A stretch of DNA of 36,217 nucleotides from positions 1 through 36,217 of IMG/VR virus record IMGVR_UViG_3300010430_000255. The stretch is one strand, 5' to 3'. Source of the DNA: a virus. How positions within the stretch are numbered: the stretch's first letter is position 1; every line of letters begins with the position of its first letter. The notes beneath the pieces were generated by a model. It saw only the letters and a program-made list of their open reading frames with translations. It made no database searches and was not told the DNA's origin. The translations under genes and the position numbers were made by a program. This document shows positions 1-36,107 of the stretch, piece after piece.

Positions 1-123
1 CCTGAATGGTCATTCTTTAGTGCAGTTTTAAATGTGGATATAAGTTTGGAACAGTGTCACCATGCAATTCTGTCCAGTGGCCTTTCTTCTTTCTTGAACG
101 TCTGGCAGCTGTGAAGCTGTTCA
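1..123. repeat. Direct terminal repeat, left copy
   Basis: Bases 1-123 are identical to 36095-36217. A repeat of about read or k-mer length at both contig ends is the usual sign of a circular assembly, so the true unit is 36,094 bp. It could also be a real short terminal redundancy of the packaged DNA. It falls inside a glycosyltransferase gene and crosses no gene boundary of note, which favours the assembly explanation. Confidence 0.95.
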
Positions 124-781
124 TGTTGGTGCCTGACTTCAGATCCACAAGGCTGACATGGTCACCAGCCATCTGGTCATCATAGGTCAGTGGCAACACA
201 ACATTCTGCCACTGGTACTGCTTCTGCAATTCCAGCAGCCTTCTGTCAAGAACTGATTCCATCTTCTTATTCTGGACATTGTCAACCAGTCGCCATTGAA
301 GCTGGCGCATAAGCTCAAGACTATACAGCCTTGCAGGACCATACCCAAAAGGAACAGATGGATTGACTTGGCCGGCTTCACCTGTGACCAGATCATAAAA
401 GATACACTGACCAATGCCAACCAGCATGGCACCATCATGCAAGCACTGGACAGCCTTGGTGATGTACCTGGAACTGACAAGGTTATCAGATCCAAGAATG
501 GTGAAGCTGTCAAATTCCTTGTGCTTTATATAGGCAGATGCCACACCATAATTCCACTTTTTTCCAAGCGGGTTATTAGAACATGTCAATATTGTCCATG
601 GTTCATCATCCAGCTTTGTCCAATCATATGGATCAGGATCTTCTGGCGAGTGAACCACGAACGGCCACAGGCTGATTCCAATATCTTCCAGCTGCCAGTT
701 CAGCCACGTGATGTGTTCCACCACCAGCTGTGTCACTTCAGGACGTTTCCAAATAGGTATTAAGGTGGCAATCTTATGCAT
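17..781 (-). CDS. GT-A glycosyltransferase
   Basis: A 254-residue protein with a family-2-like GT-A layout. An N-terminal beta strand and PIWKRPEV segment (residues 9-16) is followed by NNPLGKKWNYG at 69-79, then GSDN at 97-100, which sits where the metal-binding DxD normally is. No signal peptide or membrane segment is visible, so it should act in the cytoplasm and move a sugar from a nucleotide donor to an unknown acceptor. Its start overlaps the end of the portal gene by 8 bases. Its stop lies 3 bases before the start of the next glycosyltransferase across the circle junction (35256-36107). The fold is well supported; donor and acceptor are unknown. Placement with head genes suggests virion or envelope glycan modification. 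Confidence 0.8.
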   Translation of the reverse strand: MHKIATLIPIWKRPEVTQLVVEHITWLNWQLEDIGISLWPFVVHSPEDPDPYDWTKLDDEPWTILTCSNNPLGKKWNYGVASAYIKHKEFDSFTILGSDNLVSSRYITKAVQCLHDGAMLVGIGQCIFYDLVTGEAGQVNPSVPFGYGPARLYSLELMRQLQWRLVDNVQNKKMESVLDRRLLELQKQYQWQNVVLPLTYDDQMAGDHVSLVDLKSGTNMNSFTAARRSRKKKGHWTELHGDTVPNLYPHLKLH

Positions 782-2180
782 GTTGGCCGTTCTTTTTATG
801 CTTCAATGATTCCATCTTCAATTGCTTGTACACATCAAGCAACAGTTTTTCAGCTGCATCTTCATCTGGTTCACTATCCAATGGAATGGTCATTCCTGCT
901 TCTTCCAATGGAATGGTGCCAATACGTGTCAGCAATTCATTGGCTTTGCCACCACGTTCTTTTTCGCCAAGGCTTGTCCTGGCTTCATCAATGGTGATGA
1001 TCTGCTGACCAGCAACTGCCTTGGATAGCCGTTCCATCTTGCTGTTCAGGTCTTCACGTAGCTGCTTGATGTCTGCTTCATCATATGCCAGAATTGCTTC
1101 TGGTGTGTTATACATTGGCATATACCAGCAGGTCATCTGGTCCAGCATCCAGTCAACCAGTGGCAACACCTTCAGCTGAATCAAGGCACTGACAGCTTCC
1201 TTGAAATTTGAATAAGTCTTGTTTGCATTGTCACCAAGTAGTGCAGGATCAATGCCAAGGCCAACTGCAATAATTCTGACCAAGCTGGCCATCTGCTTGT
1301 CAAGCTGTGCATTGTCTGGTGTCATACCATTGGCCTTGAAATCAATACCACCTTCCAGAAGCATTGGCTTTGAATCCTTGCTTCCTTCCTTGTACATATC
1401 ATGCAAGCCATCCTGTGTGCGCTTGAACTGGTCATCACCAAGTTCATCATCTGTGATGAACCAACCTGGAATCCTTCCTTTATGTTGGCTGATGCTGCCT
1501 TGCCAGTCAAGCATGTTGTCATACAGATCCAATGCCTGAAGGATGGATGCCATCAGTGGCCAGCCAGTGTTGTCATCTTGTGGGTTGTACACCTTCAGCC
1601 ACAGGACATCCTTGGCTGGTGCTGACCATCTACGGTTCATCATGTTGATGCCACTGAAGCGTGTGATGTCAAAAGATACTTCATCACGGTCAATCTGCTG
1701 CAGCCTGTCTGGCCTGACAAGTCGCCAGCTGGTTGGCTTGAATGTACCTATCACGCCAAGATTCCAGATGATCATGCTGCCACCAAACATCAGGTGATGA
1801 ATGCCTTCAATGAAGAAGTCAGATGTGGATTGGTCTTTGTTTGGTTTCTTCAGCCGTTCCAGTATTGGATGTGTTGGATCATCAACCATGTCACCTTCTT
1901 TTCCTGGCACTTTCACTTTCACATTCTTCATGATGCTGGCCAAGTTGTATGCAATCAACACAAGTGCTGTGTATGCATACGGGTTGCGCATGCCTTTTTC
2001 AGACAGCTTTTCATATGATGGCCGTGACCAGTAGACTGGCAGACCAATGAAGAAAGAACTGACAGTTGGAAAGGCACTGAAGATGAATGACTTCATACGG
2101 CTGGCCAATCTGGCCACTGGCCTGACAGAATAATCAGCCAGAAAGGTCAAGGCTGATCTGCGTGTTTTACTGCGTTTCAT
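774..2180 (-). CDS. Portal protein (HK97-like)
   Basis: A 468-residue portal protein, the dodecameric ring through which DNA enters the head and to which the tail joins. The C-terminal half carries the typical GIDPALLGDNANKTYSN segment followed by a long helical part, and the N-terminal region has PYAYTALVLIAYNLAS. I place the start at the ATG at 2180 (MKRSKTRRS), because a start at 2330 would run 164 bases into the upstream methyltransferase gene; the remaining overlap is 14 bases. The stop overlaps the next glycosyltransferase by 8 bases, which suggests coupled translation. Terminase lies upstream in the same operon, as usual, but the head protease and capsid are separated from it by a block of sugar-modifying enzymes. 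Confidence 0.92.
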   Translation of the reverse strand: MKRSKTRRSALTFLADYSVRPVARLASRMKSFIFSAFPTVSSFFIGLPVYWSRPSYEKLSEKGMRNPYAYTALVLIAYNLASIMKNVKVKVPGKEGDMVDDPTHPILERLKKPNKDQSTSDFFIEGIHHLMFGGSMIIWNLGVIGTFKPTSWRLVRPDRLQQIDRDEVSFDITRFSGINMMNRRWSAPAKDVLWLKVYNPQDDNTGWPLMASILQALDLYDNMLDWQGSISQHKGRIPGWFITDDELGDDQFKRTQDGLHDMYKEGSKDSKPMLLEGGIDFKANGMTPDNAQLDKQMASLVRIIAVGLGIDPALLGDNANKTYSNFKEAVSALIQLKVLPLVDWMLDQMTCWYMPMYNTPEAILAYDEADIKQLREDLNSKMERLSKAVAGQQIITIDEARTSLGEKERGGKANELLTRIGTIPLEEAGMTIPLDSEPDEDAAEKLLLDVYKQLKMESLKHKKNGQHA

Positions 2181-2760
2181 TGTTTTTCCGTATAGCTGTG
2201 AAAAGAAACCATTGCCAGATTGCCTTCTGCTTGATGGTTGCTGGATCAATGAAAGGCCTGTATCTATCAAGCACTTTCTGCCAACTTTGGAAGTGCCTGA
2301 CATGACCTGGATCATCAAAGGTTGGCACACTGATCACCATCTGACTGCCTTCTGGAATCAGTGAAAAGATACGCAGATCATCCTTGATGTGTTCTAAAAC
2401 TTCCAAGCATACAAAGCAACCACCTGGTGGAATTGTGTTTCCAAGTGTCATCTGTCCAAGATCAGATTGGAAGAATTGGAACTGGCCACCATGGCCAAGC
2501 TTCTTCTTTGCCATGAAGATGGCAGCTTCACTGAAGTCATATCCAATGTACATTTCTGGTGGATTGGTCACCTTCATGGCTTGGCCAAAGTGGCCACCAC
2601 CACATCCAAGGTCAATGACAAGTGGTGACTTTTCAGGCACCATCAGTGCAGCCTGTTCATACAGTCTGGTCCTGACTCTGCTGATCTGGTTCCAGTTTTT
2701 CTTCCACTTCTGACTGGTCCATTGCTGGTCATAATAGTTGCTGTCTTGCTCTTTACCCAT
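2167..2760 (-). CDS. Class I SAM-dependent methyltransferase
   Basis: A 197-residue protein with a Rossmann-type methyltransferase core: motif I VIDLGCGGGHFG (about residues 48-59), an acidic-loop strand MYIGYDFSEAA, and CLEVLEHIKDDL after strand 4. This is the Methyltransf_11/23 type, whose members often act on small molecules, sugars or lipids; it has none of the DNA-methylase catalytic motifs. The leader has GAAGGA about 8 bases before the ATG, one of the few plausible Shine-Dalgarno sites here. It overlaps both the small gene upstream (8 bases) and the portal gene downstream (14 bases). Its place beside the glycosyltransferase block makes sugar O-methylation a reasonable guess, but the substrate is not shown by the sequence. 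Confidence 0.8.
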   Translation of the reverse strand: MGKEQDSNYYDQQWTSQKWKKNWNQISRVRTRLYEQAALMVPEKSPLVIDLGCGGGHFGQAMKVTNPPEMYIGYDFSEAAIFMAKKKLGHGGQFQFFQSDLGQMTLGNTIPPGGCFVCLEVLEHIKDDLRIFSLIPEGSQMVISVPTFDDPGHVRHFQSWQKVLDRYRPFIDPATIKQKAIWQWFLFTAIRKNNETQ

Positions 2761-14735: not shown

Positions 14736-14802
14736 ACTGGATGATGTGAAACCAATGGCTTATTTTTACATAAGCGATTTATTCACAGCTAGGTGTTCCT
14801 TT

Positions 14803-15066: not shown

Positions 15067-15082
15067 AAGCTGAACAGAAAAG

Positions 15083-15147: not shown

Positions 15148-15202
15148 CCTGGAAGGAAAGTGGGTTGGCTTATATTATACACATATCACACTTTTGTTGC
15201 AA

Positions 15203-15574: not shown

Positions 15575-15601
15575 GCTTTTAAGGTTTAGACGGGGGATTG
15601 G

Positions 15602-15682: not shown

Positions 15683-18600
15683 CAACCACCAAGTGGCTTC
15701 CTGGTGATTACAAATTCAAAGTTGCTGGCTGTCCTGTTCTGAACTGCAACAGCGTTTCCAACTCCCCATGACCAAATTCTGCCACCACTGCATCCAACAT
15801 ATCTTCTGACACCATCATCATCAAACCACTTGACAATGCCTGAATTGTTGGTTGGTGCATTGGAAGCAACAATGACAGCATCAACTGGATTGTTCACAGT
15901 GATTGGATTGTACTGGTATATTCCTGAACCAATTACCCTGAAGGCCACATTGTTCAAGAAGTCAATGTCACCACCTTTGTACTCAAGTCCACTGGCACCT
16001 TGCAACCCTTCAACACTACCGTCAGAAACATCAAAGCGATTCAAGCCACCACTTTGCCAGTGCATGATGAATGATCCACTGTCATATGAACCAATTGCAA
16101 AAGGTCCACCACTGAAAGATGACAGGCCAGATCTGGCTTCATAATTCCACAAGGCACCACCATCCAAGTTGTATCCATACATTCTATTGTTGAACAAGGC
16201 AGCTGTGTGATTGCCAACCACGATGATGTCAGCTGTGGAATGTACATTGATGGTTTCCAGATCACTGAAGCCTGTGTCAAATAGTTCAACAAAGCCTTGG
16301 CCATCTGAATCAGACCTGTACACCTTGCCACCTGTGCCAAGGAAGTACAGCTGGCCATTGCCCTGGTGGCGTGCACCAGCAATGATGGCATATGAATCAA
16401 GATCCAGATCTGTCTTCTGTTCATTGAAGTCATCATCAATGATATACAAGAAACCATCATCAGCTGACATTCCCCACATTGGACCAGACAAGTCATCAAT
16501 CCATGGTGGCACTGTGCTGGCCACAGCTGCTGGATCACTGCATTCTATACAAACACCATCACGCGCACCAAGTGACTGGCCAGCATGCACCACTGTCATC
16601 CGTGGCTGTTCATCTGCCTGTGTGACTTCCACTTCAATCTTCCACACCAGTTCTTCCATGGTGATGTCAAGATCAATGCCGGCTGTCTTTGTGTCTTCCT
16701 GGATGGTGCTGCCTGACCATGACAGCTGCCTGATGGTCCCTGTCCATTCACCAATGAATCTGAATTGAGAAGTGCCAACAGGGAAGACAAAGGAAAGCGT
16801 GGCCATGTTACCCTTGAAGGTGCCACCACTTGTGACACGGTCACCTTCATCAACAATCCATTCTGGTCCATTAAAGGATGTCTTTTTGTGCGTCTGCAAC
16901 GTATATACTGCAGCTTCACCAGAAGTGAAGCCTGAACCTGAACCAGCACCTGGAACAGCTGACACATCCACCTTGGCCACAGTTGAATTCCATGGCGCAC
17001 ATTCAAGAATGTTGGTGACCTGACACACAGCTGATGACACATATTGTGAATCCAACATCAAGCCAAGGCCGGCCATTCCACCACCACCTGAACGCTTGGC
17101 CAGACCACGCAACACTGAATCAGAAAGCCACATCTGGTGTGTGTCAAAACCAAAGGCCACAAGGTTCACTTCACATGCTGAATCAATCATCTTCCTTGCA
17201 TGTGCTGCAAGGTCTGACTTGATCAGCTGGAATCCATATTGTTCAACACCATCAACACGTGCACCAGCTGATCCATTGAAGTACCTGCCAGCTGACTTTG
17301 GCGTGGCTGCTGCCAGTGCTTCACTTCCCATTATATCCAGCACAGTGCCACTTCTTGGCTGCCACATCACCAGCCTGTTGAATGTGGTGTCACGTCTTAT
17401 GGTATGATAGCATTCACCATCAAAGTCACCACTTCCTGGAATGACACCTGAACCGCTTCCTGGCACCTGACCTGAACCTGATCCAATGGCACCACTGCCT
17501 GATCCACTGGCTGGTTCTACATATTCAAAATGTGTGACTGAATGAACAGTGTCAAAAGAATTGCCACTTCCAACGGTTGACCTGTTGGCTGATGCTGGTG
17601 GTGGTAAATTATCCCACTTGTAAATAGTGTCAACATTGTACGCTGCACCATAAATGGTGGTCAGGTCTTCAGTCAGATCCAAGTGCCAGATGTTTGCCGT
17701 GCTGTCGCCATTGGTATATCCACCTGTGTTGTTGCCAATGGCTTTCCACATGACATTGGCATCATTCCAGTATCCAAGCATGACATTGGTATTGTCCACC
17801 ACAACACAGTGTGCCACATCATTGGTGTCTGTTGGATATTGGAATTGGATGGTGCCACCACTGTCATATGCCCTGCACGAATAGTCATAAGGGACATAAA
17901 TGTATCCATCAGCCGGCCTGAAGAAAGGATGACCTGGCCACTGCAAGCTGCTTACAATCAAAGATTCACTTCCACCATCATCCGAATTTTCATACAGTTC
18001 ACCAGATGCTTGCCTGACAGTGTAATACATCAAGCTGTTGGCATAGTCAAAGCAGATGCCAAATACATCAGTCAATCCTGTTCTAAGAACTTCTTCTTGC
18101 AAGCCGAACCTGTCACACCTTCTGACATCACCAACAAAGAAAAGCGTGGTATAAAGCATCTGCTTTTCCCTGTGCCACGCCACCTGTTGCAATCCTTTGG
18201 ATGGACCATAAACATGAACAAGGAAGTTTGGTGAACCATCATCATCCACATACATGATGGCATCATCAGATGACCGTGAATAATACAGACCAGACGTTGG
18301 AAAATCTTCTTTGTGAACACTACATGCTGAATCATAGTTGGCACCATTGCCAACAGAATACCAGTGTACAGTTGTGGTGAAGGTGCCACTGCTTCCAAGT
18401 TCTGACAGGCATGCATCACCAGATGTGTGGCTGCTGTCTGTTCCTGACACATTCCATGCAGCTGGTTCAGCTGTGCCTTCCTCCCAAACACGGCCACGTA
18501 TACTGCCATCAGAGAAACGACAAAGCCGGCACCAGTAACCTGTATTGACATTCAGCGTGAAGCTGTCATTGTCCATGTTGTTGTAGCTGCCACCACCTTG

Positions 18601-18957: not shown

Positions 18958-19884
18958 TTATTGTGACCAAGCCGGCACACCAATCCAGTTGCCATTGGCC
19001 AATTTGTCAATTCCAACACGTGGTTCCAGTGCTGCACCAACTGATGCAATGGTCACACGTGGATCCACATCAGCTTCATCAACTGAAAAGACAATGCGCC
19101 ATGTTTCATCTGGCACCACAACATTCAGGCTGTCAGTGCCTGATGGCTTGTTGGTACTGCTGATCAGGCTGCCTGACCAGTCATAGAAGTACAAGGTCAT
19201 GTTATTGGCTGATTCTTCAATGGTCAAGGTGGCACCTTGTATTGGAAGAATCCAATCAAGTACAGGATCAATGCCATCACCTTTTGTCAATTCACCTGTG
19301 AAGTCAACACTGGTGTCAGGTGATCCTGGATTCCAGTATGGTCCAACAAAGTCTTCCTTTCCTGGCTTCAACAACCAGTATTCATTGTCAATGACACCAC
19401 TACCACTGCCAAAGATCTGGCCACTGCCTGAAGCAGCTGATCCACGCTTGACCACGCTTGAAGTGCAAGACCATGGAAAGCCTTCAAGGATGTTGTCAGA
19501 TTGGAAGATGCCAGCTTCAAAGGCATGTGACTGCAGCCTGACCATTGCACCAGCCATGTTGGCTGGACCACGTCTGACATCCACAACATCAAGACGTTCA
19601 GGAACAGACCACAGCTGATGACGCTTCAGGCCAAGGATGTACACGGCCACAGGTTCATCCAGTGCACACATGTCACGTAGGGCAGAAATATGACATTCAT
19701 TAATGATTGGCAGCTGCAACAGCCAAGTACGGGCAATTGTGCGTGAAGAACCATTGACCACCATTGTCTTTTCTTTGACTTCTGGCGTGGCCTTCAGCAG
19801 CATCATGTGACCTGGTACATCAACACAGAAGCCACTGGCTTCTTGCACAAAGATGCACCTTCCATATCCATCACGTGTTGGCAT
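18958..19884 (-). CDS. Tail-tip protein with Gly-Ser linker
   Basis: A 308-residue protein between the hub-like protein and the large receptor-binding protein. An N-terminal 150-residue domain (with HQLWSVPERLDVVDVRRG and NILEGFPW) is joined by a Gly-Ser linker (about 153-170, ASGSGQIFGSGSGV) to a beta domain ending TWRIVFSVDEADVDPRVTI. The same domain order with clear local matches is found in residues 510-800 of the next protein, so they are paralogous. It probably forms part of the tail tip to which the fibre attaches. Start is one base after the upstream stop; next gene follows after 12 bases. Confidence 0.7.
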   Translation of the reverse strand: MPTRDGYGRCIFVQEASGFCVDVPGHMMLLKATPEVKEKTMVVNGSSRTIARTWLLQLPIINECHISALRDMCALDEPVAVYILGLKRHQLWSVPERLDVVDVRRGPANMAGAMVRLQSHAFEAGIFQSDNILEGFPWSCTSSVVKRGSAASGSGQIFGSGSGVIDNEYWLLKPGKEDFVGPYWNPGSPDTSVDFTGELTKGDGIDPVLDWILPIQGATLTIEESANNMTLYFYDWSGSLISSTNKPSGTDSLNVVVPDETWRIVFSVDEADVDPRVTIASVGAALEPRVGIDKLANGNWIGVPAWSQ

Positions 19885-24835: not shown

Positions 24836-25309
24836 CTATGAACCGCTTGCTGGCGTGTAATCCTGTATTGCCTGCAGGGATTCATTGGCTGGTGCTGAGA
24901 AGCGAAGTGTGGCCATTGTCAGTGCAGCAGGGTTTGGAACCGCTTGCTGTTCCCAAATGACAATACAACCAAACTGGCCACCAACAATCTTGTACGTTTC
25001 TTTTCCGAGTTCCTTAACTCGGATCCATACAGGTGAAAGGTTGGTGGTTGCTGTAATTAAAATGTTTTGCCACGTGTCATTGGCTTTCAATGCGAACGGC
25101 AGAACACCACGCAACAACAGCATGGCCATCAGGTCTTGCTGGTTCATACCAACAACGGTTGATGCTTCTTCACCTGGTGCTTCATATCCATCACCAAGGA
25201 TCTGTGTACGTGGTATAGTTGTCCATGTGCCGCTTGCAACGTCATCTGGATCAAAGTCAGTTGCGACTTCATAGGATTCAACTACTGGCCTGTGGATTGA
25301 TGTATCCAT
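24836..25309 (-). CDS. Major tail tube protein (candidate)
   Basis: A 157-residue protein, beta-rich, in the position expected for the tail tube subunit: after the tail terminator and before the chaperone pair. It has a helix in the middle (MNQQDLMAMLLLRGVLPFAL) between beta strands, and the end ATLRFSAPANESLQAIQDYT recalls the C-terminal strand of tube proteins. It is smaller than many tube proteins. Function is inferred mainly from gene order. The start is preceded by AACCATTTAAAAGATC, a leader-like sequence otherwise found before early genes. Confidence 0.65.
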   Translation of the reverse strand: MDTSIHRPVVESYEVATDFDPDDVASGTWTTIPRTQILGDGYEAPGEEASTVVGMNQQDLMAMLLLRGVLPFALKANDTWQNILITATTNLSPVWIRVKELGKETYKIVGGQFGCIVIWEQQAVPNPAALTMATLRFSAPANESLQAIQDYTPASGS

Positions 25310-25330: not shown

Positions 25331-26809
25331 TTAGGTTAACTGTACGCGAAAATCAACATGGTGAATCAGAAGTTGTTCACCATCACCAGCCAGATTGCTA
25401 CCAAAAGCAACAAGTGGCATGGATGGCAAGGCGATTGATTCAGGTTTATTGATCTGTATGATTTCACCAGATCCATCATCAACTTCCAAGGCACCAACGG
25501 TGTTGAATGCTGTCAAGATTCCATCAGGGCATTCACCCCAAAGCAGATTGTACCATTCCTGTGTGGTGCTACCAGTGAAGGCTTCATCTTCTTGGAACTG
25601 ATACTGGATGATGATTTCATATTCATGTGTGACAAGCACACTGCTGTTGTGGACATCACGAATGTCATCCACATTGTCAACTGCAGAAGGCTGATCAACT
25701 GGTGCAATCCTGCACCACCTGACTGGATCACCAAAGACATTTTCAAAGTCATAACGGGATTCAAGGCCAAGCAAGTGCTTTGTCACCAGTTCATTGACAC
25801 GCCATACACCACCATTGGTGTGGTTGGCCAGAATGCCTTCAATGTATGTCTTCAGGGTTTCTAGTTTCACGGCCTGTGCTACATTAAAAATTAAAGATTC
25901 ACATGGTTCAGGTTCACCAGATCCACTTCCTGGCACTTCACCTGAACCGCTTCCAATTACGCCACTGCCACTGCCAGCTTCACCAGACCCTGATCCAATG
26001 ACACCACTGCCACTGCCGGCTTCACCACTACCTGATCCAATGACACCTGAACCGCTTCCTGGTACTTCACCACTACCTGATCCAAATTCACCTGAACCAC
26101 TTCCAATGTCACTGCTTCCTGAACCGGCTGGCAACAGTTCTTCATATGTCAGCCGTGTACCACCATTGAACATGGCATCAATGTCATCTTGACTGAACAG
26201 ACCACGCTTGAAAATAGCCTGTGCCATTGCACCAATGAATCCAAAAGTACCATCACCACCAATGTGGAAGAAGTCATTCTGGCTGCCAATGTCTGTGCCG
26301 TTGAATCCATAGGCAACTGTACCTTCAGACACACCATCAACAAAGGTTTCAATGTTGCCATCCACATCAATATTGAAGACAACATGATTGGCTGCACCAA
26401 AGTCAAGTCCAATGTTGGCAAGTGCATTGGCATCACGTGTTGATCCATCACTGATGAATGGCCGTGACTGGCCACCACCAGCTGTTGTGGTCCTGACCTG
26501 TAAAGCATAACCTTCCTCTGTGGTGCTGAATGCACCTGTGCTGGCCAGTGCTTCCACCAAGTTGTTGTTGGCTGGAAAGATCCAGAAGGCTGCTGAAAAG
26601 TCAGCCAGACCAATCTGCCATGGCGTACTGCTTCCAGTCTTGCCAATCCATGTACTGGCCAGCAGGTTGATCTGTGTGCCCTGTGCACCAGTGTCATACG
26701 TTGGTGCTGTGCCACTGGCATCTGGCAAGTGGTTACCATTGCCACTTGCATCATTGCCATTGCCATCAAAGTCATGTGCGCTTATCACGCCAGTTGGATC
26801 AAAAGCCAT
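25331..26809 (-). CDS. LamG-domain / tail terminator fusion
   Basis: A 492-residue protein of three parts. Residues 1-225 are a LamG/concanavalin-like domain (ISAHDFDGNGNDASGNGNH at the start; VVFNIDVDGNIETFVDGVSE and GFIGAMAQAIFKRGLFSQDD are hallmark strands of Laminin_G_3). Residues 229-300 are a Gly-Ser linker with a 14-residue repeat. Residues 303-492 look like the tail terminator or completion protein, from size and position between a gp10-like protein and the tube gene (LETLKTYIEGILANHTNG; VTHEYEIIIQYQFQEDE). LamG on a tail terminator would display a sugar-binding domain at the head-tail junction. The join is read as one frame without stop. TGATG overlap with the upstream gene. Confidence 0.7.
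   Translation of the reverse strand: MAFDPTGVISAHDFDGNGNDASGNGNHLPDASGTAPTYDTGAQGTQINLLASTWIGKTGSSTPWQIGLADFSAAFWIFPANNNLVEALASTGAFSTTEEGYALQVRTTTAGGGQSRPFISDGSTRDANALANIGLDFGAANHVVFNIDVDGNIETFVDGVSEGTVAYGFNGTDIGSQNDFFHIGGDGTFGFIGAMAQAIFKRGLFSQDDIDAMFNGGTRLTYEELLPAGSGSSDIGSGSGEFGSGSGEVPGSGSGVIGSGSGEAGSGSGVIGSGSGEAGSGSGVIGSGSGEVPGSGSGEPEPCESLIFNVAQAVKLETLKTYIEGILANHTNGGVWRVNELVTKHLLGLESRYDFENVFGDPVRWCRIAPVDQPSAVDNVDDIRDVHNSSVLVTHEYEIIIQYQFQEDEAFTGSTTQEWYNLLWGECPDGILTAFNTVGALEVDDGSGEIIQINKPESIALPSMPLVAFGSNLAGDGEQLLIHHVDFRVQLT
25910..26125 (-). repeat. Tandem repeats coding a Gly-Ser linker
   Basis: Codes residues 229-300 of the LamG/terminator protein: units GSGSGVIGSGSGEA repeat twice in full (42-base unit), with shorter GSGSGE units on both sides and PGSGSG at the ends. 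Similar linkers occur in 15682-18945 (17425-17508) and 18958-19884. The repeat number could change by slippage. Confidence 0.85.
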
Positions 26810-28128: not shown

Positions 28129-28209
28129 TTTAAAAAGTAAGTTGGCGCCCTATGCGATCGCACGGCCGGCACATGTGTTTTACATAGTTTCAGCCTAAAA
28201 AATTAAAGT
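28129..28209 (-). repeat. 81-bp intergenic repeat, copy 2
   Basis: The partner of 15602-15682, with a single difference in the 58-base core (A at 28157), making TGCGATCGCA a perfect palindrome here. It fills almost the whole gap between the TagF-like gene and the connector gene, ending 6 bases before the connector start. The part beyond the core overlaps the last codons and stop of the upstream gene. Confidence 0.85.
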
Positions 28210-29780
28210 TCAGCCTTTTCTGGCTTGGCTTCATTGACTGGCTGCTGTTCTCCTTTTGGAAGATTGGCTTCCTTCCATTCTTTTTCCAGCTTCTTGACAG
28301 TCTTGCTGGCCAGTGCCTTGGTCTTCACCTGCTGGACAGTAACACCATCACTGACAATGTCATAGTAACCACCACCAGTTGCCAGTGCTTCAATCTTTGG
28401 CATCTGTGCTTCAGTGATCGTGACAATTGGCTGATCCTGTTCACCAACACCTGGAAAGGTTGGCACTTCTTCAAACTCTTCTGGCCATCTGGCTGAACCA
28501 TTGGCCACCAGTTCCTTGATGTGTTGTTCATCACTGAAGAAGAATTGACCTGGCCTTGCATTCATGCCCTGTTCCACTGCCTTGCCACCTTTGACAATTC
28601 TGTGGCCACGTCTGGCATTCCTTAAACGATTGATTGCAATTGCTGCTTTTTGTGTGCGTGAAAAATAATCCATGATTGGTTTTCTGTTTGGTTTTCTGAT
28701 TGTCGTGTGAACCGTTGCTGTCTTCTGCCTGACAGGCTTCTTGAATTCATTGGCAGCTTTTACAATTCCAGCAGCTGCACGTTCAGCAGCCTTTCCATCA
28801 GTGAAGCCATACACCATGTCAACTGCTTCACGTCTTTTCTTTTGCTGGTCAGCTGAATCTTCCAGTGCTTCAAGCACAGCATCAACCAGCTGTGCCGGCT
28901 GCCACACATTAATGCCAACTTCTGAAGCATCCCAAAAGCGTAAGCCATGGTTGACATTCTTCCTGAATCGTGGTGAATTCATAACCACAACAGGCCGGCC
29001 ATTGCCATCTTTGCCAGCGCTTGCAAACTCGTACAAGGTTGACATTGAATCCATCACATACAGATGGCCTTGCTTCATGACATTACTGAATGACCGTATT
29101 GGTTCAATGCCAAGCTGCCTGTATGTTTCGGCAAACTTCCTGAAGGAACGTGGATGGCCATGGCCTTTCAGGATGAACTTTTCACCATTTAGCTTGGCCA
29201 GTTCCTTCAGACCTGGAAGCATGTGCCAGAATGTGGATCCTGTTTCTGGCACAAAGCTGCAATGCCAGTGTGAAGAAAAGACTACCACAGGAAGGCCATC
29301 TTCTTCTGGTTGCTGCAGCGTGCCATCGTGCCATGGATCCATCTTTGGACAACCACAGACATGTGCAGGAATCCTGCCTTGGTATGCTGCCCTGTCACGT
29401 GCTGCTGGATGGTTACCTGGATGAATGAAGGCTTGAACGTTCTTGTGGTTTCTCCATCCAGCATATGAAGGATGAAGCTTGTTGAATGACTGGCCACCAC
29501 CATGCTGTGTAAATACAGCCTTCAGACCAGCCTTGTGTGCAAGTGCAAGATCACCAGATGCAGCTGCCACCATCATGTTGTTTCTTTCGCGCATCAAAGG
29601 CACACTGTGTGCACGGTTCTTTCCATACTCAATGGCCGGCACACCATAGTTCCTGGCTAAGTTGCCAAGGCCTTTCCTGACCAGAAACTTGCCTTTGTAC
29701 TCTTCTGGAAGCTTCTGGTACATAGGCACCAAGTGTTCCAAGAAGTGGGATTCATAAGCGAGAAAATCAACAACTGTCAT
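28203..29780 (-). CDS. TagF-like transferase with capsid-associated C-terminus
   Basis: A 525-residue protein. Residues 1-345 fit a GT-B fold of the CDP-glycerol glycerophosphotransferase (TagF/TagB) kind: TQHGGGQSFNKLHPSYAGW (91-109), VVVFSSHWHCSF (165-176), KFILKGHGHPRSF (201-213) and MDSMSTLYEFASAG (243-256), then PVVVMNSPRFR. Residues 365-525 are different: a basic link, then ARPGQFFFSDEQHIKELVANG (408-428), recalling the short proteins coded next to capsid genes, and a Lys/Glu-rich tail. It lies between the capsid gene and the connector. A transferase tied to a capsid-binding part could modify virion glycans; glycerophosphate or sugar as the transferred group is open. Confidence 0.65.
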   Translation of the reverse strand: MTVVDFLAYESHFLEHLVPMYQKLPEEYKGKFLVRKGLGNLARNYGVPAIEYGKNRAHSVPLMRERNNMMVAAASGDLALAHKAGLKAVFTQHGGGQSFNKLHPSYAGWRNHKNVQAFIHPGNHPAARDRAAYQGRIPAHVCGCPKMDPWHDGTLQQPEEDGLPVVVFSSHWHCSFVPETGSTFWHMLPGLKELAKLNGEKFILKGHGHPRSFRKFAETYRQLGIEPIRSFSNVMKQGHLYVMDSMSTLYEFASAGKDGNGRPVVVMNSPRFRKNVNHGLRFWDASEVGINVWQPAQLVDAVLEALEDSADQQKKRREAVDMVYGFTDGKAAERAAAGIVKAANEFKKPVRQKTATVHTTIRKPNRKPIMDYFSRTQKAAIAINRLRNARRGHRIVKGGKAVEQGMNARPGQFFFSDEQHIKELVANGSARWPEEFEEVPTFPGVGEQDQPIVTITEAQMPKIEALATGGGYYDIVSDGVTVQQVKTKALASKTVKKLEKEWKEANLPKGEQQPVNEAKPEKAEL

Positions 29781-29865: not shown

Positions 29866-31203
29866 TTAAGATCCTGAAGTGGCTGTGCTGAAGTCGCCAG
29901 CAACAAACGCCAATGGCCGGTAAATGGTCAACGCCAAACGTTCTTCAACACGTAGCGTGGCCAAGTTCTGACGGAAGTTGGTGCTGTCTTCAGTTGAGAT
30001 TGCAACAGCTGGCTGCATACGGTCCCAGATCTGACCACCAAGCGCGAATGAACCAACAAGGAATTCATGGATTGGCATGGAAAGGCTGGTTGATACAGGA
30101 AGCCCCCACAGACGCGGTGAAGTTGCATCAGCAGGATTGGACATCAAGTAACGGTTTTCACCATCCTTCAAAAGCTCAATTGCTGACCAGTTGAAGTTGT
30201 TCATCACAATACCCGTTGGAGGATATTCTGAAGCCGTGACCTGATACATGGCCACACGGATCCGGTCGATGTCCTGAACTGATGCGATTCCAAGGCTGGT
30301 TTCCAAGCTTGAATCATAGGCAGTGGCCTGTGTGATTACACCATTCAGGTTGTTGCCAGTACCATCACCATTCAACAGCTGGTTTTCTTCTTCCAGTAAA
30401 AGCAGGTAGCGCATACGGCCATCCACATATGACTGAAGACCAACAGCATCATCAATGATCTGTGTGGACACAACAACAAAGTGTGCAAGCGTTTGGATTG
30501 GCACAGTGGTGGCATCAAACGTGAAATTGGATTCACCTTTCAATACACCTTGGCCGGCCTGTGGTGAAGCGTTATCAGTCACACTGTTTTCAATGACATA
30601 CCGCACATTGTCAGATGTGGTGCCACCTACAGGAAACAGGTCACGAATCAGAAGCTGGCGTTGCCCTGGTCCAAAGATTCCTGGAATCCGCATGTAATCA
30701 ACAGCATCACCTGCACTGGCACTGTCATTGGTGATGGTCTTAAGAAGCGCTTGCACTTCTTCTTCCTTCATATTACCAGCCATGATCATTGGCATCACAC
30801 TGCGTGACTTCAGATCAAGGCCAAGGCGTTTCACCTGGATGTAACGTGAAGAAGGCACTGACTTCATCTGTTGCATGTCAGCACGGTTGTTGGCCAAGAA
30901 GGAAGCCACTTCCATACCTGCAGACTTGATGTTGCCAGAAGCAGAACCACGTTCTGCCAGACGCTTCTGCAGTTCTTCCTTGAATGCAGTGTGTTCTGTT
31001 TCAGCTGCCTTGACACCATCCTGGATGGTCTTGATCTGATCAACCAACTGTGCATTGGCTTCAGACATCTTGTTGACAGTTTCCTTCAGTTCAGCATTGC
31101 CTTGGCCGGCTGCTTCCAAATTTTTGATGCGTGGTTCAAGGTCAGTCATGATGCCATTCATGTTCTTGCCTAGTTCATCCACGGCTTTTTTTAATGCTTC
31201 CAT
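29866..31203 (-). CDS. Major capsid protein (HK97 fold)
   Basis: A 445-residue capsid subunit. Residues 1-95 are a long coiled coil, the scaffolding delta domain (AQLVDQIKTIQDGVKAAETE). After the likely protease cut near 95-110 the HK97 core follows, with a P-domain and FLVGSFALGGQIWDRMQPAV, then QNLATLRVEERLALTIYRPL and ATSGS at the end. It builds the icosahedral head. Its start overlaps the end of the protease gene by 13 bases, and a terminator hairpin follows. Codon use is like the neighbours but with a slightly higher use of G/C in third position. Confidence 0.92.
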   Translation of the reverse strand: MEALKKAVDELGKNMNGIMTDLEPRIKNLEAAGQGNAELKETVNKMSEANAQLVDQIKTIQDGVKAAETEHTAFKEELQKRLAERGSASGNIKSAGMEVASFLANNRADMQQMKSVPSSRYIQVKRLGLDLKSRSVMPMIMAGNMKEEEVQALLKTITNDSASAGDAVDYMRIPGIFGPGQRQLLIRDLFPVGGTTSDNVRYVIENSVTDNASPQAGQGVLKGESNFTFDATTVPIQTLAHFVVVSTQIIDDAVGLQSYVDGRMRYLLLLEEENQLLNGDGTGNNLNGVITQATAYDSSLETSLGIASVQDIDRIRVAMYQVTASEYPPTGIVMNNFNWSAIELLKDGENRYLMSNPADATSPRLWGLPVSTSLSMPIHEFLVGSFALGGQIWDRMQPAVAISTEDSTNFRQNLATLRVEERLALTIYRPLAFVAGDFSTATSGS

Positions 31204-31925
31204 GTGCTCAAAGATTGATTAATTAATTGGATGTTGGATAGAAGGGCCAGCTGCTTAAGTTGGTCTGCAGCTTCCTGATCCGGCACCTGATCATCAGACA
31301 GGTGTGGTTGGCCACCAAGGTCTTTGACTGTTCCAAGCCATTGTTCAATGGACATGGCAAGTTCATCAGACAATCCACCAGTGTTCAGTGCACGGCTGGC
31401 GGTTTCAATCTGGCTGGCAAGTGGTGTTGGCATGATGGCCTTTTCTGACTTGAACTGACCTGGCATCTGCTTCACAGACACAGTTGGTGTCAATGAATTT
31501 GCCCCCCATGTAACACTTGAATATTCCCACAACCTTGCTTCCAAGATGATGGCTTGGTCATCTTCATCACGATTCAAGACATCAATGCCAACACTGTGTT
31601 CAGTGATGACTCCATCTTGATACAACAACAGGGCATCCAAGCCACGTCTGGTCTTTGAAATCTTACTGACCACACGCAAGCCTTTTTCATCTTCTGTCAA
31701 CTCAAGTGGAACGCCAAGCAGTTCATCCCACCAATGCATGTTCAAATGCTTGATGCGATTACTGCCAGCAGGTCCACGTTCCTTGATGGTCTTGGCATAC
31801 GCACCTTTGACAATGATATCACCATGTGAATCCTTATTGCCAAAGCCTGAAGCATATAACACAACAATGCCATCCAGAAGTGAAACGTCTGCAATGGTGC
31901 CTGAATCCTTTAATAAAAAAGCCAT
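31191..31925 (-). CDS. Prohead protease (HK97/U35 family)
   Basis: A 244-residue serine protease of the caudovirus prohead family. The segment IVVLYASGFGNKDSHGDII is typical for the N-terminus, RIKHLNMHWWDELLGVPLEL has the catalytic His, and GVITEHSVGIDV has the catalytic Ser. It would cut the capsid delta domain during maturation. I use the ATG at 31925 (MAFLLKDSG) because the only longer start is a TTG at 31952. It overlaps the capsid gene by 13 bases. The C-terminal third is a charged helical region (LASQIETASRALNTGGLSD). Confidence 0.9.
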   Translation of the reverse strand: MAFLLKDSGTIADVSLLDGIVVLYASGFGNKDSHGDIIVKGAYAKTIKERGPAGSNRIKHLNMHWWDELLGVPLELTEDEKGLRVVSKISKTRRGLDALLLYQDGVITEHSVGIDVLNRDEDDQAIILEARLWEYSSVTWGANSLTPTVSVKQMPGQFKSEKAIMPTPLASQIETASRALNTGGLSDELAMSIEQWLGTVKDLGGQPHLSDDQVPDQEAADQLKQLALLSNIQLINQSLSTWKH

Positions 31926-32003
31926 GTTGTTCTTTGAAATGAAGTTGACCAAGCCACTGATCTGTGGCTTTTACCAGTAGACTGACAGGCCAATGTACTG
32001 AAA

Positions 32004-32700: not shown

Positions 32701-33666
32701 TTAGATGATTGGCTTCTGTGTGCACCTGCAGTTTATGACATTGCCAGCACTGCCAGTTGGATCACCTGCAAAGCGTAAGAATTCACCAGACACCAAGAAC
32801 TTGGCAGTGATGGCCACCACCTGTCCATCAGGTTCTAGATGATCCCACTTCCCTGTTCTGACCTTGCCATCACGTCTTGAAAGCCATGACCGTTCCTTGA
32901 TGCCAGCATCTTCAAAGGCCATGACCTGACCTTCTTCAAAGACTGGCGTGGCTGTGGTCTGTGCAATTGTGCGTGCACGATTCCTGGCAACACCAAAGAC
33001 GTTTTCAACAAGGTCTGTCAGTTCATCAATGTCAGCACCTTGGTTGATGGCCTGTGGCAGCAGGTTGGAAAGATCATTGACAATGGTATCATTGATTCCT
33101 TTTGTCTTCTTCAGAACTTCCGTGACCATGGCAATGGCACGTGGATCCTGATCAGGGAAGTCAAGGTCACCAATGTCAATCAGGTCAAGGCCATTGGTAT
33201 ATCCTTCCACCACAGATGCTGCTGCAGCTGGTCCATATCGCGTGACTGTTTCATCATACCACTTCTGAAGGTCAAAGATTGACAAGGCCTGTTCCAGATC
33301 TGCCTTGCTGGTCCATGGTGCCAGCATCTTTGGATTGTAGTATGCATTCAGAAGCGTGAATTGTTTGGCCTTGTTGAACCTACCTTTGCCGGCTGACTTC
33401 AGACCTGGAAAGGCAGATGGTATGTTGGCCACTGTTTCCTTCTGCTGATCATTGAACAGCGTCTTGGTGATCTTGATGTACTTCTGTTCACCTTGTCTTT
33501 TGGTCAGGTCAGTGACAAACCACATTGCAGTCAGTGCTTCATCAGGAAGGTCATGTTCCTTCATCCTGGCTGCCTTTAGCAAGGTCTTCATGTCACCAGC
33601 AAACACACCACTGGCAGCTGACTTGGATGCAGCATAAAGAATGGATGCCATGTCATGCTTTGCCAT
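32701..33666 (-). CDS. Mu F-like minor head protein
   Basis: A 321-residue head-morphogenesis protein. The C-terminal half matches the Mu F / SPP1 gp7 class: NRARTIAQTTATPVFEEGQV, then GIKERSWLSRRDGKVRTG and HLEPDGQVV, ending GSAGNVINCRCTQKPI with the conserved Asn-Cys-Arg-Cys. A helical N-terminal half (LYAASKSAASGVFAGD and on) follows the start. These proteins sit in the prohead near the portal. Usually it is next to the portal gene; here five sugar-modification genes are inserted between the two. The start overlaps the upstream glycosyltransferase by 14 bases. Confidence 0.85.
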   Translation of the reverse strand: MAKHDMASILYAASKSAASGVFAGDMKTLLKAARMKEHDLPDEALTAMWFVTDLTKRQGEQKYIKITKTLFNDQQKETVANIPSAFPGLKSAGKGRFNKAKQFTLLNAYYNPKMLAPWTSKADLEQALSIFDLQKWYDETVTRYGPAAAASVVEGYTNGLDLIDIGDLDFPDQDPRAIAMVTEVLKKTKGINDTIVNDLSNLLPQAINQGADIDELTDLVENVFGVARNRARTIAQTTATPVFEEGQVMAFEDAGIKERSWLSRRDGKVRTGKWDHLEPDGQVVAITAKFLVSGEFLRFAGDPTGSAGNVINCRCTQKPII

Positions 33667-34507
33667 ATCGCCATCTGTTTACTTTGTTGATTCCCCACAT
33701 TGAACGATACATATTTTCATATGTCTTGTCACGCTTGCGCATCTTCTGATAGTATGGTGGCCTGTTCTTTTTGTGGGTGATGTACATGGATGGAATGAAG
33801 GCCACACGCATCTTGCCAACCTGAAGCCCTGGCATCAATGGTGCATTCCTTGGATGATGTTCTTGCCTGAAGATGATCCTGTCAATCATGTTCTGATCAC
33901 CATTGGCTGCCTGAAGACGTTGGAAGAAGTCAGCATGTTCACCACCAATCTTCAGCCTTTCATCCCACATCATTGAATCAAACAGCCTACGCTTGGCAAT
34001 CCAGAAATTGCTGATGGTGTCAGCCTGTGCCCACTTCAGGCCATCATCATGTTCTTGTTCCCACCTTGAAACCTGTGGTGCCCACAACACACCATTCTTG
34101 TCAATGCGAATGTCAGCATAGTACTTGGTCCATCCTTTCCTTTTTTCATTGCGTATGTGCCGGCACTTGCATCCAGCCATGACAATGTCATCATGATCCA
34201 GCAGCAGCTGCTTCATGCGTGGTATGCCTGTTTCCTTGGTGAAGATATAATCATCATCAATGGACACAAGGAAGCGTTCAGTGGTGTGCCTGATAAGGTG
34301 ATTCCTACCAGCTGACACACCAACATCATGTGGCAGCTGCCAGAATTGATGCACACCTTTGGCCGGCTGTGGATTCCTGCTGTCATCTGCTTGGTATATT
34401 TTCGCATCTGGCCACAATGCCAAGATGGAATCCACACACCTTTGTGCCACCTTTGGCCGTTCAAAAGTCTTCAGGCAGAATGCAATATTATCAACTGAAC
34501 TATTCAT
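33653..34507 (-). CDS. GT2/B4GALNT-like glycosyltransferase
   Basis: A 284-residue GT-A enzyme. GVSAGRNHLIRHTT (63-76) precedes the metal-binding DDD at 84-86 (VSIDDDYIF), and GGEHADFFQRL (188-198) carries the catalytic-base-type acidic residue. This combination (GVxAxRNHLI, DDD, GEHxDFF) is that of beta-1,4-GalNAc-transferase-like GT2 enzymes. The protein at 35256-36107 has the same three motifs at similar positions, so the two are paralogues. It likely transfers a hexosamine or a related sugar. It lies 2 bases after the 26-residue membrane peptide and overlaps the head-protein gene by 14 bases. Confidence 0.82.
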   Translation of the reverse strand: MNSSVDNIAFCLKTFERPKVAQRCVDSILALWPDAKIYQADDSRNPQPAKGVHQFWQLPHDVGVSAGRNHLIRHTTERFLVSIDDDYIFTKETGIPRMKQLLLDHDDIVMAGCKCRHIRNEKRKGWTKYYADIRIDKNGVLWAPQVSRWEQEHDDGLKWAQADTISNFWIAKRRLFDSMMWDERLKIGGEHADFFQRLQAANGDQNMIDRIIFRQEHHPRNAPLMPGLQVGKMRVAFIPSMYITHKKNRPPYYQKMRKRDKTYENMYRSMWGINKVNRWRYGKA

Positions 34508-34509
34508 AA

Positions 34510-34590
34510 TTAAACCTTATAGATTCCAGCCAAACCAAGTGCCAGCAAAACAAGCAGCAACAGGAAAGCCTTCCATAATATCCTTTTCAT
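34510..34590 (-). CDS. 26-residue single-span membrane peptide
   Basis: A tiny reading frame: MKRILWKAF, then a hydrophobic run of Leu and Val (LLLLVLLALGLAGIY), then KV and stop. The basic head plus one helix predicts an N-in, C-out span. The ATG overlaps the sulfotransferase stop as ATGA and its stop is 2 bases before the next glycosyltransferase start, which is exactly the spacing of the real genes around it. Too short to classify. It could anchor the modification enzymes to the membrane or act as an assembly peptide. Confidence 0.6.
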   Translation of the reverse strand: MKRILWKAFLLLLVLLALGLAGIYKV

Positions 34591-35201
34591 GTGGCCAACC
34601 TGTTCTTCTTCAGGCCAACCTTGATGATCTGCTCTTCACGTGGTACACCACAGAAGTCAAGCAGCTGGCGTTGGCCACCTTCTGAATTGAACACATCCAC
34701 ATAACAAACCATGATCTGGTCAGGATATTTTTCAACCACTGGTGGCACCAATTCATTGTAGTAATAATTCCAGTATGCAATCAAGGCTTCCTGTCTGTTG
34801 GCTTTGCCACTGAACTTTGGAAAGCAATGATACCATCTGGCCTTCTTTGGCGTGCCACCTTCACCTGGTGGCTGCCAGTTGTTTCTGTTTCCAGCCTTCT
34901 TCTTCCAGCTGGCCAAGTATGGTTTCAGCTGACGTTTCAGGACAATCACCTTGGCACCATAGTCACACCACTGCATCATGCAGCATCCATGTTGAAGTGC
35001 TACATCACCAACCAATCCAGAAGGATGGTCATGTGCATGCTTCAAGATCTTGTGCTGCCATTCAGCCGGCTTGTTCCAATGGAACTTGCTTCTGAATCTT
35101 TCATGCGTAACATGTGCACCACGCTGCAAATCCAACAGCATGGCCAGTGTGGTGGTGCCACATCTGCCTGTTCCCGCACCTATCACCAATTGTTTTTCCA
35201 T
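34587..35201 (-). CDS. Sulfotransferase
   Basis: A 204-residue enzyme of the PAPS-dependent sulfotransferase fold. The 5-prime phosphosulfate-binding loop is VIGAGTGRCGTTTLAMLLD (6-24), with the GTxRCGTTxL form, and the 3-prime phosphate-binding strand and helix is VIVLKRQLKPYLASW (85-99) with Arg 90 and Ser 98. HVTHERFRSKFHW could be a substrate loop. It would move sulfate from host-made PAPS to a hydroxyl or amino group, most likely on a sugar, given three glycosyltransferases in the same cluster. No signal peptide, so cytoplasmic. A 54-base gap separates it from the upstream gene; its stop overlaps the 26-residue peptide gene. Confidence 0.85.
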   Translation of the reverse strand: MEKQLVIGAGTGRCGTTTLAMLLDLQRGAHVTHERFRSKFHWNKPAEWQHKILKHAHDHPSGLVGDVALQHGCCMMQWCDYGAKVIVLKRQLKPYLASWKKKAGNRNNWQPPGEGGTPKKARWYHCFPKFSGKANRQEALIAYWNYYYNELVPPVVEKYPDQIMVCYVDVFNSEGGQRQLLDFCGVPREEQIIKVGLKKNRLAT

Positions 35202-35255
35202 ATTAAATCCAGCCTTTCACACAGGCCACCAATCTGTTCTTGTTAAAGGCTGCCT

Positions 35256-36107
35256 TCAATAGATGGCCTTTGCTTTCTGCCTTGAATTCCATCTGGCAAT
35301 TGTGCTGAATCGCCACCTTGCCATCATCTGTTTCCTGAATCTTCCACCACGTGAACGCTTTGCATTGTATGACTTGTCAGGCCGGCTTCCTGTGTCCACT
35401 ACGTAGGAACTGACATCCAATGCAACACCAAGTGAACCACGATCCTGACAGTCATACTTGATTGGTGATGAATCATCCTTGATATGGAAGACACTGGCAA
35501 ACCTGTCAATCAGTTGCTGGTGGCCATTGGCAGCTGCAAGTCTTAAAAAGAAATCAACATGTTCCCCACAAGTCTTCAGTCTATAATCAAACCTAACAGC
35601 TTTAAAGACTTTGCGCCTTGCCAAGAAACACATTGGCACATAATCAACAGCCATCCATTCCAGCAATCCTGTGTGATGTTTCTGTATTGGCCTGTTGATG
35701 TGCAGCAAGTTGCCATTTACAAAGAAGATGCCTTCTGAATTAGACCATCTGTTTTTTCCTTTGTCCATCTTCCTGGCTGCCACCAAAGCCAATGATGGTT
35801 CATTGTCAAGGATTGTCATCATACAGTCAAGATTGACATGATTCACCTTCATGTCATCATCAAGCATGAAGATGAATGGTTCATCTGTCTGTTCAATTAG
35901 ATGATTCCTTTTGGCACTGACACCTGAATCTTGTGGCAAAACAAAAGTATCATCAGCATTCCAATATGCTGACTTCTCTACATCACTGTCATCACAGACA
36001 TAAATCCTGGCACCTGGCCACTTTCCTGCAATGATGTTGATGGTATCTTGGCATTCTTTTGGCCTGTTATATGTTGGAATACAAAATGCAATATCCTGAA
36101 TGGTCAT
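35256..36107 (-). CDS. GT2/B4GALNT-like glycosyltransferase
   Basis: A 283-residue GT-A enzyme, first gene after the circle junction. FCIPTYNRPKE opens the fold, GVSAKRNHLIEQT (62-74) and the metal-binding DDD (83-85, MLDDDMKV) follow, and CGEHVDFFLRL (180-190) gives the catalytic acidic site. These are the same three motifs as in 33653-34507, so a gene duplication is likely, now flanking the sulfotransferase. The C-terminal 40 residues are strongly basic (SYNAKRSRGGRFRKQMMARW), perhaps to hold nucleic acid or an acidic membrane. On the circle its start lies 3 bases after the stop of 17-781. Confidence 0.83.
   Translation of the reverse strand: MTIQDIAFCIPTYNRPKECQDTINIIAGKWPGARIYVCDDSDVEKSAYWNADDTFVLPQDSGVSAKRNHLIEQTDEPFIFMLDDDMKVNHVNLDCMMTILDNEPSLALVAARKMDKGKNRWSNSEGIFFVNGNLLHINRPIQKHHTGLLEWMAVDYVPMCFLARRKVFKAVRFDYRLKTCGEHVDFFLRLAAANGHQQLIDRFASVFHIKDDSSPIKYDCQDRGSLGVALDVSSYVVDTGSRPDKSYNAKRSRGGRFRKQMMARWRFSTIARWNSRQKAKAIY

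Follow-up and report, generated by a model that had tools for sequence, protein, structure and literature searches.

Organization of the head operon

The DNA analyzed here, called the window, is a contig of 36,217 nucleotides that carries a phage genome of ~36 kb. A 123-bp direct terminal repeat closes the contig as a 36,094-bp circle, so both window ends adjoin and the modification genes (the cassette) are contiguous on the circle, as an earlier note on this DNA had claimed. All open reading frames named in that note are present. The head operon, on the minus strand like the tail genes and Gly-Ser features below, has the order methyltransferase, portal, GT3, GT1, sulfotransferase (ST), a 26-residue peptide, GT2, MuF, protease, capsid, and a TagF-like enzyme. 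The tight joins described earlier were also found, with overlaps of 4–14 bp and gaps of 2, 3, and 54 bp. The methyltransferase and portal genes overlap by 14 bp, portal and GT3 by 8 bp, ST and the peptide by 4 bp, and GT2 and MuF by 14 bp. The gaps lie between GT3 and GT1 (3 bp, spanning the circle junction), GT1 and ST (54 bp), and the peptide and GT2 (2 bp).

The structural genes encode a portal protein (774..2180; PF04860, E = 1e-39; phrog_12), a MuF-like head morphogenesis protein (32701..33666; PF04233, phrog_2468), an S78 prohead serine protease (31191..31952; PF04586), and an HK97-type major capsid protein (MCP; 29866..31203; PF05065, E = 8e-48). The 26-residue hydrophobic peptide (34510..34590; MKRILWKAFLLLLVLLALGLAGIYKV), recognized from its sequence, overlaps the ST stop codon and is not conserved in the relatives L002 or L016.

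The three glycosyltransferases had been proposed to be GT-A enzymes, and this assignment holds for two by Pfam and for the third by its model. GT1 (35256..36107) is a GT2-family, GT12-like enzyme with a DDD motif (PF00535, E = 4e-11), and GT2 (33653..34507) is its paralogue at 33% identity (PF00535, E = 4e-9); both matches are above the cut-off. GT1 also matches PF20691 (TAGT) above the cut-off, as well as phrog_842. A search of the PDB with the GT profile (A9) gave B4GALNT1 as the best match (E = 5.5e-22), followed by chondroitin synthase (E = 3e-8). These enzymes resemble GT1, GT2, and the GT of the minimal cassette described below at the profile level, but the phage proteins are single-domain and soluble. 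GT3 (17..781) has GSDN replacing the DxD motif and no match in Pfam. Its AlphaFold model (pLDDT 80) matches the GT-A enzymes WrtF, SpsA, and CgT, which supports a GT-A identity as far as a predicted fold can. A PDB sequence match of GT3 to a designed protein was spurious, and its identity was decided by the fold.

The first gene of the block, overlapping the portal gene, encodes a SAM-dependent class I methyltransferase (2167..2760; PF13489, E = 1.6e-9). It is conserved at 40–52% in three relatives (G003, G004, and G005), in agreement with the earlier assignment, and O-methylation of a glycan by this enzyme is possible. A TagF/GT-B-like transferase with a C-terminal extension (28203..29780) is weakly assigned in the window itself (E = 0.05), and a PDB sequence-profile search with it gave no useful match. 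However, 5/5 homologues match PF04464 (best E = 9e-9). The enzyme type suggested previously is thus retained, but the gene is not merely nearby, as had been described; it belongs to the same operon, directly behind the capsid gene.

A putative PAPS sulfotransferase

The ST gene (34587..35201) had been read as a PAPS-type sulfotransferase. Its Pfam match (PF17784, E = 9e-4) is under the cut-off and a PDB sequence-profile search with it gave no useful match, so the assignment rests on the predicted fold. The AlphaFold model is of high quality (pLDDT 90, pTM 0.88), and all 26 of its 26 Foldseek matches in the PDB at E ≤ 0.001 are sulfotransferases. The GxGxGR and R90-x7-S98 motifs are invariant across nine ST homologues (alignment A10). 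The fold, the 5′-phosphosulfate loop, and the 3′-phosphate R-x7-S motif that define the PAPS superfamily are therefore all present, and the modeled fold together with these motifs supports the earlier reading. Sulfotransfer activity itself is inferred.

The ST travels with a GT in every case. A scan of viral contigs with a pattern for ST alone gave no matches. Sequence homologues occur in two cellular genomes, an Acidobacteria MAG (L030, 49%) and a Gammaproteobacteria MAG (L031, 28%). The latter lies clearly amid surface-polysaccharide genes, the former less so. Unlike the phage gene, both are chromosomal with no phage structural neighbors seen. Sulfotransferases of cyanophages and an OM43 phage share the fold, with similarity at the superfamily level only, and their function has been called unclear (PMC10580990).

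The cassette in related phages

The cassette order is common to uncultivated relatives at 30–60% identity. The earlier note had suggested a search for the same gene order in related phages, and we found it in L002, L016, L026/L032, and L033; because the order is repeated, that of the window is not due to chance. In these full (type I) cassettes, GT3 is conserved, and 4/4 near-complete type I genomes carry the cassette inside the late head operon. An apparent GT match in another contig, L065, proved to be an overlapping-frame fragment. A minimal, two-gene form (type II), with the order capsid-ST-GT, is present in three more uncultivated lineages; it also occurs in 184 cultured Salinibacter phages, which are Salinibacter ruber M8 isolates.

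Gly-Ser C-termini of the capsid and tail proteins

The window MCP ends in -SGS (29869..29877). The same C-terminus (24839..24847) is found on the major tail protein (MTP; 24836..25309), which has no match in database families and was identified by its position and its conservation in type I and II phages. Across phages, a terminal Gly-Ser (or GSGA) on the MCP is present in 10/10 lineages with the cassette and in 0/67 dereplicated MCP relatives that lack it. The MTP likewise ends in Gly-Ser in every cassette phage with a readable MTP, and the GS is invariant in alignment A7. On the MCP tree, cassette and tag each change about three times, always together. Only two of these pairs are independent and well supported; therefore, a Fisher p-value overstates the independence of the association, and the phylogenetically independent test is underpowered (p = 0.5).

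A natural loss was observed in L115, a Salinibacter-type contig whose capsid region is ~96% identical to that of Salinibacter phage 2_15. Its ST start codon reads ACG instead of ATG, ST and GT are for the most part deleted, and the capsid Gly-Ser is gone through a separate 3-nt change (GGC TCG to GCT). L115 is a single metagenomic contig that ends before its MTP.

We infer that the C-terminal serine of the MCP, and of the MTP as a second candidate, is a glycan acceptor.

Comparison with glycosylated mycobacteriophages

One report, citing Freeman et al. 2023, places the glycans of mycobacteriophages at the C-termini of the capsid and tail tube (PMC12619734). Che8 and Corndog-like phages are likewise reported to be glycosylated, on that authority as given in three papers (PMC12619734, PMC11600133, PMC11256854). 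For cluster O, an O-methyltransferase and three GTs are reported to modify the capsid and tail tube (PMC11600133). In the GT-bearing actinophages we inspected, the MCP ends in GS in 7/7 and the MTP in Ser in 7/7. Both proteins end in GS in Che8, Crumble, Krakatau, and the prophage prophiGD57-2, and Dylan, Poise, and Fryberger have an MCP ending in GS and an MTP ending in Ser. In contrast, the MCP and MTP do not end in GS in Dubu and AGM1, two relatives that lack GTs.

The window thus resembles the mycobacteriophage system in its phage-encoded GTs and in the link between GT presence and Ser-ending MCP and MTP. In the Corndog-like phage Dylan, an O-methyltransferase and three GTs even occupy the interval from portal to protease, which matches the window. 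The earlier note had called the window's combination unusual. This is true of the sulfotransferase, a new element, but a methyltransferase with three GTs in the head operon is less unusual than thought, as it is already known in Corndog-like phages. The window differs further in its TagF-like enzyme, and the type I phages in having Gly-Ser runs in minor tail proteins as well. Hosts also differ (Salinibacter and unknown). By blastp, the window GTs have no similarity to those of Dylan and only marginal, short matches to those of Che8 and Crumble. The cassette therefore appears to work like the mycobacteriophage system, but orthology is not shown.

The virion as the probable target of modification

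Our preferred reading, to which we give a probability of roughly three in four, is that the cassette O-glycosylates virion proteins at their C-termini and, as a variant of the known system, adds sulfate. It builds on observed gene content, folds, synteny, strict cassette-tag co-occurrence, a single natural case of joint loss, and a glycosylated mycobacteriophage that carries the same tag. The earlier note had argued for a virion target from the late, head-linked position of the enzymes. Three independent lines now support that target, namely the co-occurrence with the capsid tag, the co-loss in L115, and the mycobacteriophage precedent. No modification was observed directly, and sulfation and methylation are both inferred.

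Late in infection, the C-terminal Gly-Ser of new capsid and tail-tube subunits would be O-glycosylated on its serine in the cytoplasm. In type II phages, a single GT12-like glycosyltransferase would add a sugar, which the ST would sulfate with host PAPS. In type I phages, the three GT-A enzymes and the TagF-like enzyme would extend or decorate the glycan, and the methyltransferase may cap it. The acceptor serine, the sugar identities, and the enzyme order in this scheme are inferred.

Alternatively, the enzymes could glycosylate and sulfate an O-antigen or exopolysaccharide of the host envelope, for superinfection exclusion or for seroconversion, whether lysogenic or late, and leave the virion untouched. 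This is conceivable given the cellular ST homologues near polysaccharide genes, most clearly in L031, and the S. ruber O-antigen cluster, which contains many sulfotransferases and GTs (PMC6060240); the small membrane peptide in the window cassette would also fit. However, the peptide is not conserved, the genes are kept in the late head operon of all four near-complete type I genomes, and an envelope target explains neither the Gly-Ser tag on capsid and tail, its absence in 67 relatives, nor its loss in L115. By Pfam, and without a transmembrane predictor, the features of seroconverting gtr-type systems (a GtrA flippase, membrane-bound GtrB/Gtr) are absent; the cassette domains that Pfam shows are exclusively soluble ones of GT2 type, and the unconserved hydrophobic peptide is the only candidate. 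We consider an envelope target unlikely.

The Gly-Ser ends might instead be plain flexible tails or docking peptides inherited with the capsid lineage, the cassette being merely co-inherited. The MCP tree allows this, with its few independent changes, and runs of GSGSG are in addition characteristic of flexible linkers. It has little in its favor beyond that, as the tag is common to two non-homologous proteins, was lost in L115 alongside the enzymes by a separate change, and occurs in unrelated Che8-type capsids with GTs but in none without.

The TAGT match of GT1 raised a third option, in which the GTs act on modified phage DNA bases as TAGT- or T4-type enzymes do, and the window does encode an early DNA methyltransferase (7891-8580; PHROG 757). 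No homologue of that gene is present in G003, G004, or G005, three genomes with all GTs retained. The PF20691 match is not specific, since a prophiGD57-2 GT annotated as a GalNAc-transferase also touches this family. A PF12851 search of the window gave no TET/JBP, but it had no positive control, as control genomes gave no match either. DNA hypermodification also leaves the protein tag unexplained, and we set it aside as very improbable. Finally, direct protein sulfation, with the GTs acting elsewhere, is hardly credible even though ST has tyrosylprotein sulfotransferases as its top structural matches, as these hold at the superfamily level only (TM about 0.6), the tags contain no tyrosine, ST is always accompanied by a GT (type II included), and its sequence homologues lie in polysaccharide loci.

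If virion O-glycosylation with sulfation is correct, this would to our knowledge be the first sulfated phage virion, and virion glycosylation with sulfate addition, in salt-lake phages that can be cultivated, would be new. The sulfotransferase can be linked to a specific target, namely the C-terminal Gly-Ser that capsid and tail proteins carry, in phages available in culture, which reduces the question to one mass-spectrometry experiment. The tag is also a simple, falsifiable sequence predictor of virion glycosylation and extends it past actinobacteriophages.

More speculatively, the cassette might be a prokaryotic counterpart of proteoglycans, with sulfated Ser-Gly O-glycans on the capsid and tail-tube C-termini, minor tail Gly-Ser stretches modified many times in type I phages, and a polyanionic sulfated coat that perhaps imitates a sulfated host surface. 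We regard this as possible but doubtful. Like animal proteoglycans, the cassette combines Ser-Gly acceptor-like motifs, GalNAc-transferase-like GTs, and a sulfotransferase. Unlike them, it has no xylosyltransferase or Golgi; only the logic is shared, and homology is not claimed.

Gly-Ser runs in other tail proteins

Gly-Ser runs occur in three further window proteins. A run with nine GSGSG (25916..26128) links an additional N-terminal domain in the tail-terminator homologue, and others lie in a 1087-residue (17428..17511) and a 308-residue (19396..19443) minor tail protein. These runs are possibly extra modification sites in type I tail proteins, and those of the minor tail proteins may serve this role in the scheme above. 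Their serine codons mix AGY and TCN, which rules out DNA slippage as their source. The runs of the 308-residue protein are also found in the L002 and L026 homologues, and GSGSG density is 9.5 per 10,000 residues across type I contigs, compared with 0.09 for controls.

Organization and conservation of the modification genes

The window phage genome has a 123-bp direct terminal repeat, and closure gives a 36,094-bp circle. Across the junction, the minus strand encodes a methyltransferase, the portal, two glycosyltransferases (GT3 and GT1), a sulfotransferase (ST), a 26-residue hydrophobic peptide, a third glycosyltransferase (GT2), a MuF-like protein, the protease, the major capsid protein (MCP), and a TagF-like transferase, in that order. 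Genes of the modifying block are joined via overlaps or short gaps. The earlier note, which had proposed a sulfated virion glycan from these head-linked enzyme genes, gave correct gene coordinates when open reading frames were checked in the window, and the search for its gene order in related phages was successful. The entire order (type I), from methyltransferase to TagF-like transferase, is also found in the relatives L002, L016, L026/L032, and L033, with proteins 30–60% identical to those of the window, and in partial form in L001. A smaller form, MCP-ST-GT (type II), occurs in contigs L018/L019, L024/L025, and L117. Phages of Salinibacter ruber M8 have it too, and the ST gene is present in 184 of them. 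The isolates were obtained in a pond experiment whose publication (Phoenicisalinivirus; PMC11631230) makes no mention of glycosylation, sulfotransferase, or capsid, and all genes are labelled hypothetical in the Salinibacter phage records examined.

Two small hydrophobic peptides separate ST from GT2 in L026 (1300-1620); the window has one, and L002 and L016 have none. Most operon start codons (33600-36217 and other starts) have no clear Shine-Dalgarno sequence, which, judged by eye, would fit a Bacteroidota/Rhodothermota-like host; the host is not established. The early strand encodes a PHROG 757 DNA methyltransferase (7891-8580, +) not found in the three other near-complete type I genomes.

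Identity of the enzymes

GT1 and GT2 exceed the Pfam cut-off as GT2-family proteins, and a profile of both with their relatives best matches the beta-1,4-GalNAc-transferase B4GALNT1 (E 5.5e-22), followed by chondroitin synthase. GT3 has no family match; its AlphaFold model (pLDDT 80) predicts a GT-A fold, so that all three glycosyltransferase assignments of the earlier note hold, the third on a model. The proposed PAPS-type sulfotransferase is likewise upheld. Although ST scores under the Pfam cut-off, all 26 PDB matches to its AlphaFold model (pLDDT 90) at E ≤ 0.001 are sulfotransferases, and PAPS-type motifs are invariant in nine homologues, one of which lies among surface-polysaccharide genes in a bacterial MAG; activity is inferred. 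The TagF-like assignment is weak for the window protein and consistent across five homologues.

Cellular ST homologues are found in an Acidobacteria MAG (L030, 49%) and a Gammaproteobacteria MAG (L031, 28%). Because the type I ST is nearer to the L030 homologue than to the type II ST, the two cassette types may have gained ST separately. In L012, about 40 residues of the type II GT (14630-15748) are 54% identical to part of an adjacent small late protein (15769-16116), an arrangement resembling an enzyme with a head-associated domain built in.

A C-terminal tag accompanies the cassette

The MCP C-terminus is Gly-Ser or GSGA in 10/10 cassette lineages (TSGS, GSGS, GSGS, ASGS, GSGA, GSGS, TAGS, SSGS, PSGS, and GGS), and every readable major tail protein (MTP) of a cassette phage also ends in a Gly-Ser tag. 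Among MCP relatives that lack the cassette (67 after dereplication), none has a GS end, and six end in Ser. On an MCP tree built with the last 15 residues left out, the cassette and the tag each require three changes, always jointly. The association has a Fisher p of 9e-13, which should not be taken literally given so few independent changes. In the same clade, the L071 MCP ends in a repetitive hydrophilic tail, NGDGNGDGNGDG; its upstream genes are cut off.

In papers describing Freeman et al. 2023, mycobacteriophage glycans are placed on the C-terminal ends of the capsid and tail-tube proteins (PMC12619734), the capsids of Che8 and Rita are stated to be glycosylated (PMC11256854), and cluster O phages are credited with an O-methyltransferase and three GTs modifying capsid and tail tube (PMC11600133). 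Che8 ends in NKTGS (MCP) and YSDGS (MTP). Five further phages were picked by GT annotation before their C-termini were inspected. Crumble and Krakatau have the same ends as Che8, and prophiGD57-2 ends in RAGS and IAGS, with an MTP of 195 residues versus 269 in Che8. The GT-less phages end in VTA/TPGV (Dubu) and TAV/VAGV (AGM1; MCP/MTP). In Dylan (Corndogvirus), Poise, and Fryberger, the MCPs terminate in VGS, QGS, and AGS and the MTPs in GDS, GGS, and PAS; Dylan has a methyltransferase and GTs between portal and protease, essentially the layout of the window. We conclude from these ends that serine at the C-terminus, in most cases as Gly-Ser, is a mark of glycosylated virions across phages that are not related.

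A natural knock-out and the proposed modification

The Salinibacter-type contig L115 is ~96% identical in DNA to Salinibacter phage 2_15 across the capsid region. In this contig, ST no longer has its start codon (ATG to ACG), and a deletion covers most of ST and GT. The last capsid codons have changed from GGC TCG to GCT (...PTAGS to ...PTAA), ~15 bp upstream of the former ST start and apart from the deletion junction. A modification site predicts joint loss of enzymes and acceptor, as seen here in a single contig whose MTP lies beyond its end. The tag could instead be a flexible tail kept merely by plain inheritance, a reading weakened by both L115 and the unrelated Che8-type capsids. If the enzymes modified the host envelope, the tag and its loss together with the enzymes would remain unexplained. 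The same holds if the GTs acted in DNA hypermodification, and here the DNA methyltransferase of the window is not conserved alongside the cassette and the TAGT match is non-specific. Direct tyrosine sulfation is unlikely, as the tags have no tyrosine.

Best supported is O-glycosylation of the C-terminal serine, which would take place in the cytoplasm during late expression and be followed by sulfation; in type I, the glycan would also be extended or capped. The O-antigen cluster of S. ruber contains sulfotransferase genes (PMC6060240), which makes host PAPS plausible. Sulfate might provide a charged coat in brine, mask the particle, or mimic the host's surface, all of which is inference. Comparative sequence evidence supports the target, and the chemistry, both glycan and sulfation, is inferred; with that qualification, the system appears to be a new, sulfating variant of an already known type, virion C-terminal glycosylation, outside actinobacteriophages.

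Gly-Ser runs and a sister capsid lineage

GSGSG occurs 9.5 times per 10,000 residues in type I contigs versus 0.09 in 56 control contigs, and 14 times in the window versus 0.06 expected after shuffling. All window copies fall within the tail-terminator homologue or minor tail proteins, and some are also present in the MTP of relatives. Type II phages have no Gly-Ser runs. The serine codons are a mixture of AGY and TCN, which indicates selection on the protein. The runs may be linkers, additional glycosylation sites, or both. The tail-terminator homologue (25331-26809, −) has 492 residues versus about 185 in relatives, with an extra N-terminal domain attached through a long Gly-Ser linker; this domain looks LamG/concanavalin-like by eye, which is not confirmed.

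L034, L035, and L037 form a sister capsid lineage with MCPs ending in -IT, possibly a different virion tag. Directly upstream of the protease, L034 and L035 carry other glyco genes (GT2-family, GT3-like, and polysaccharide pyruvyl transferase). Among these upstream genes, an L035 open reading frame (1334-2014) without a Pfam match has a GCPHSGTT loop, suggesting another putative sulfotransferase.
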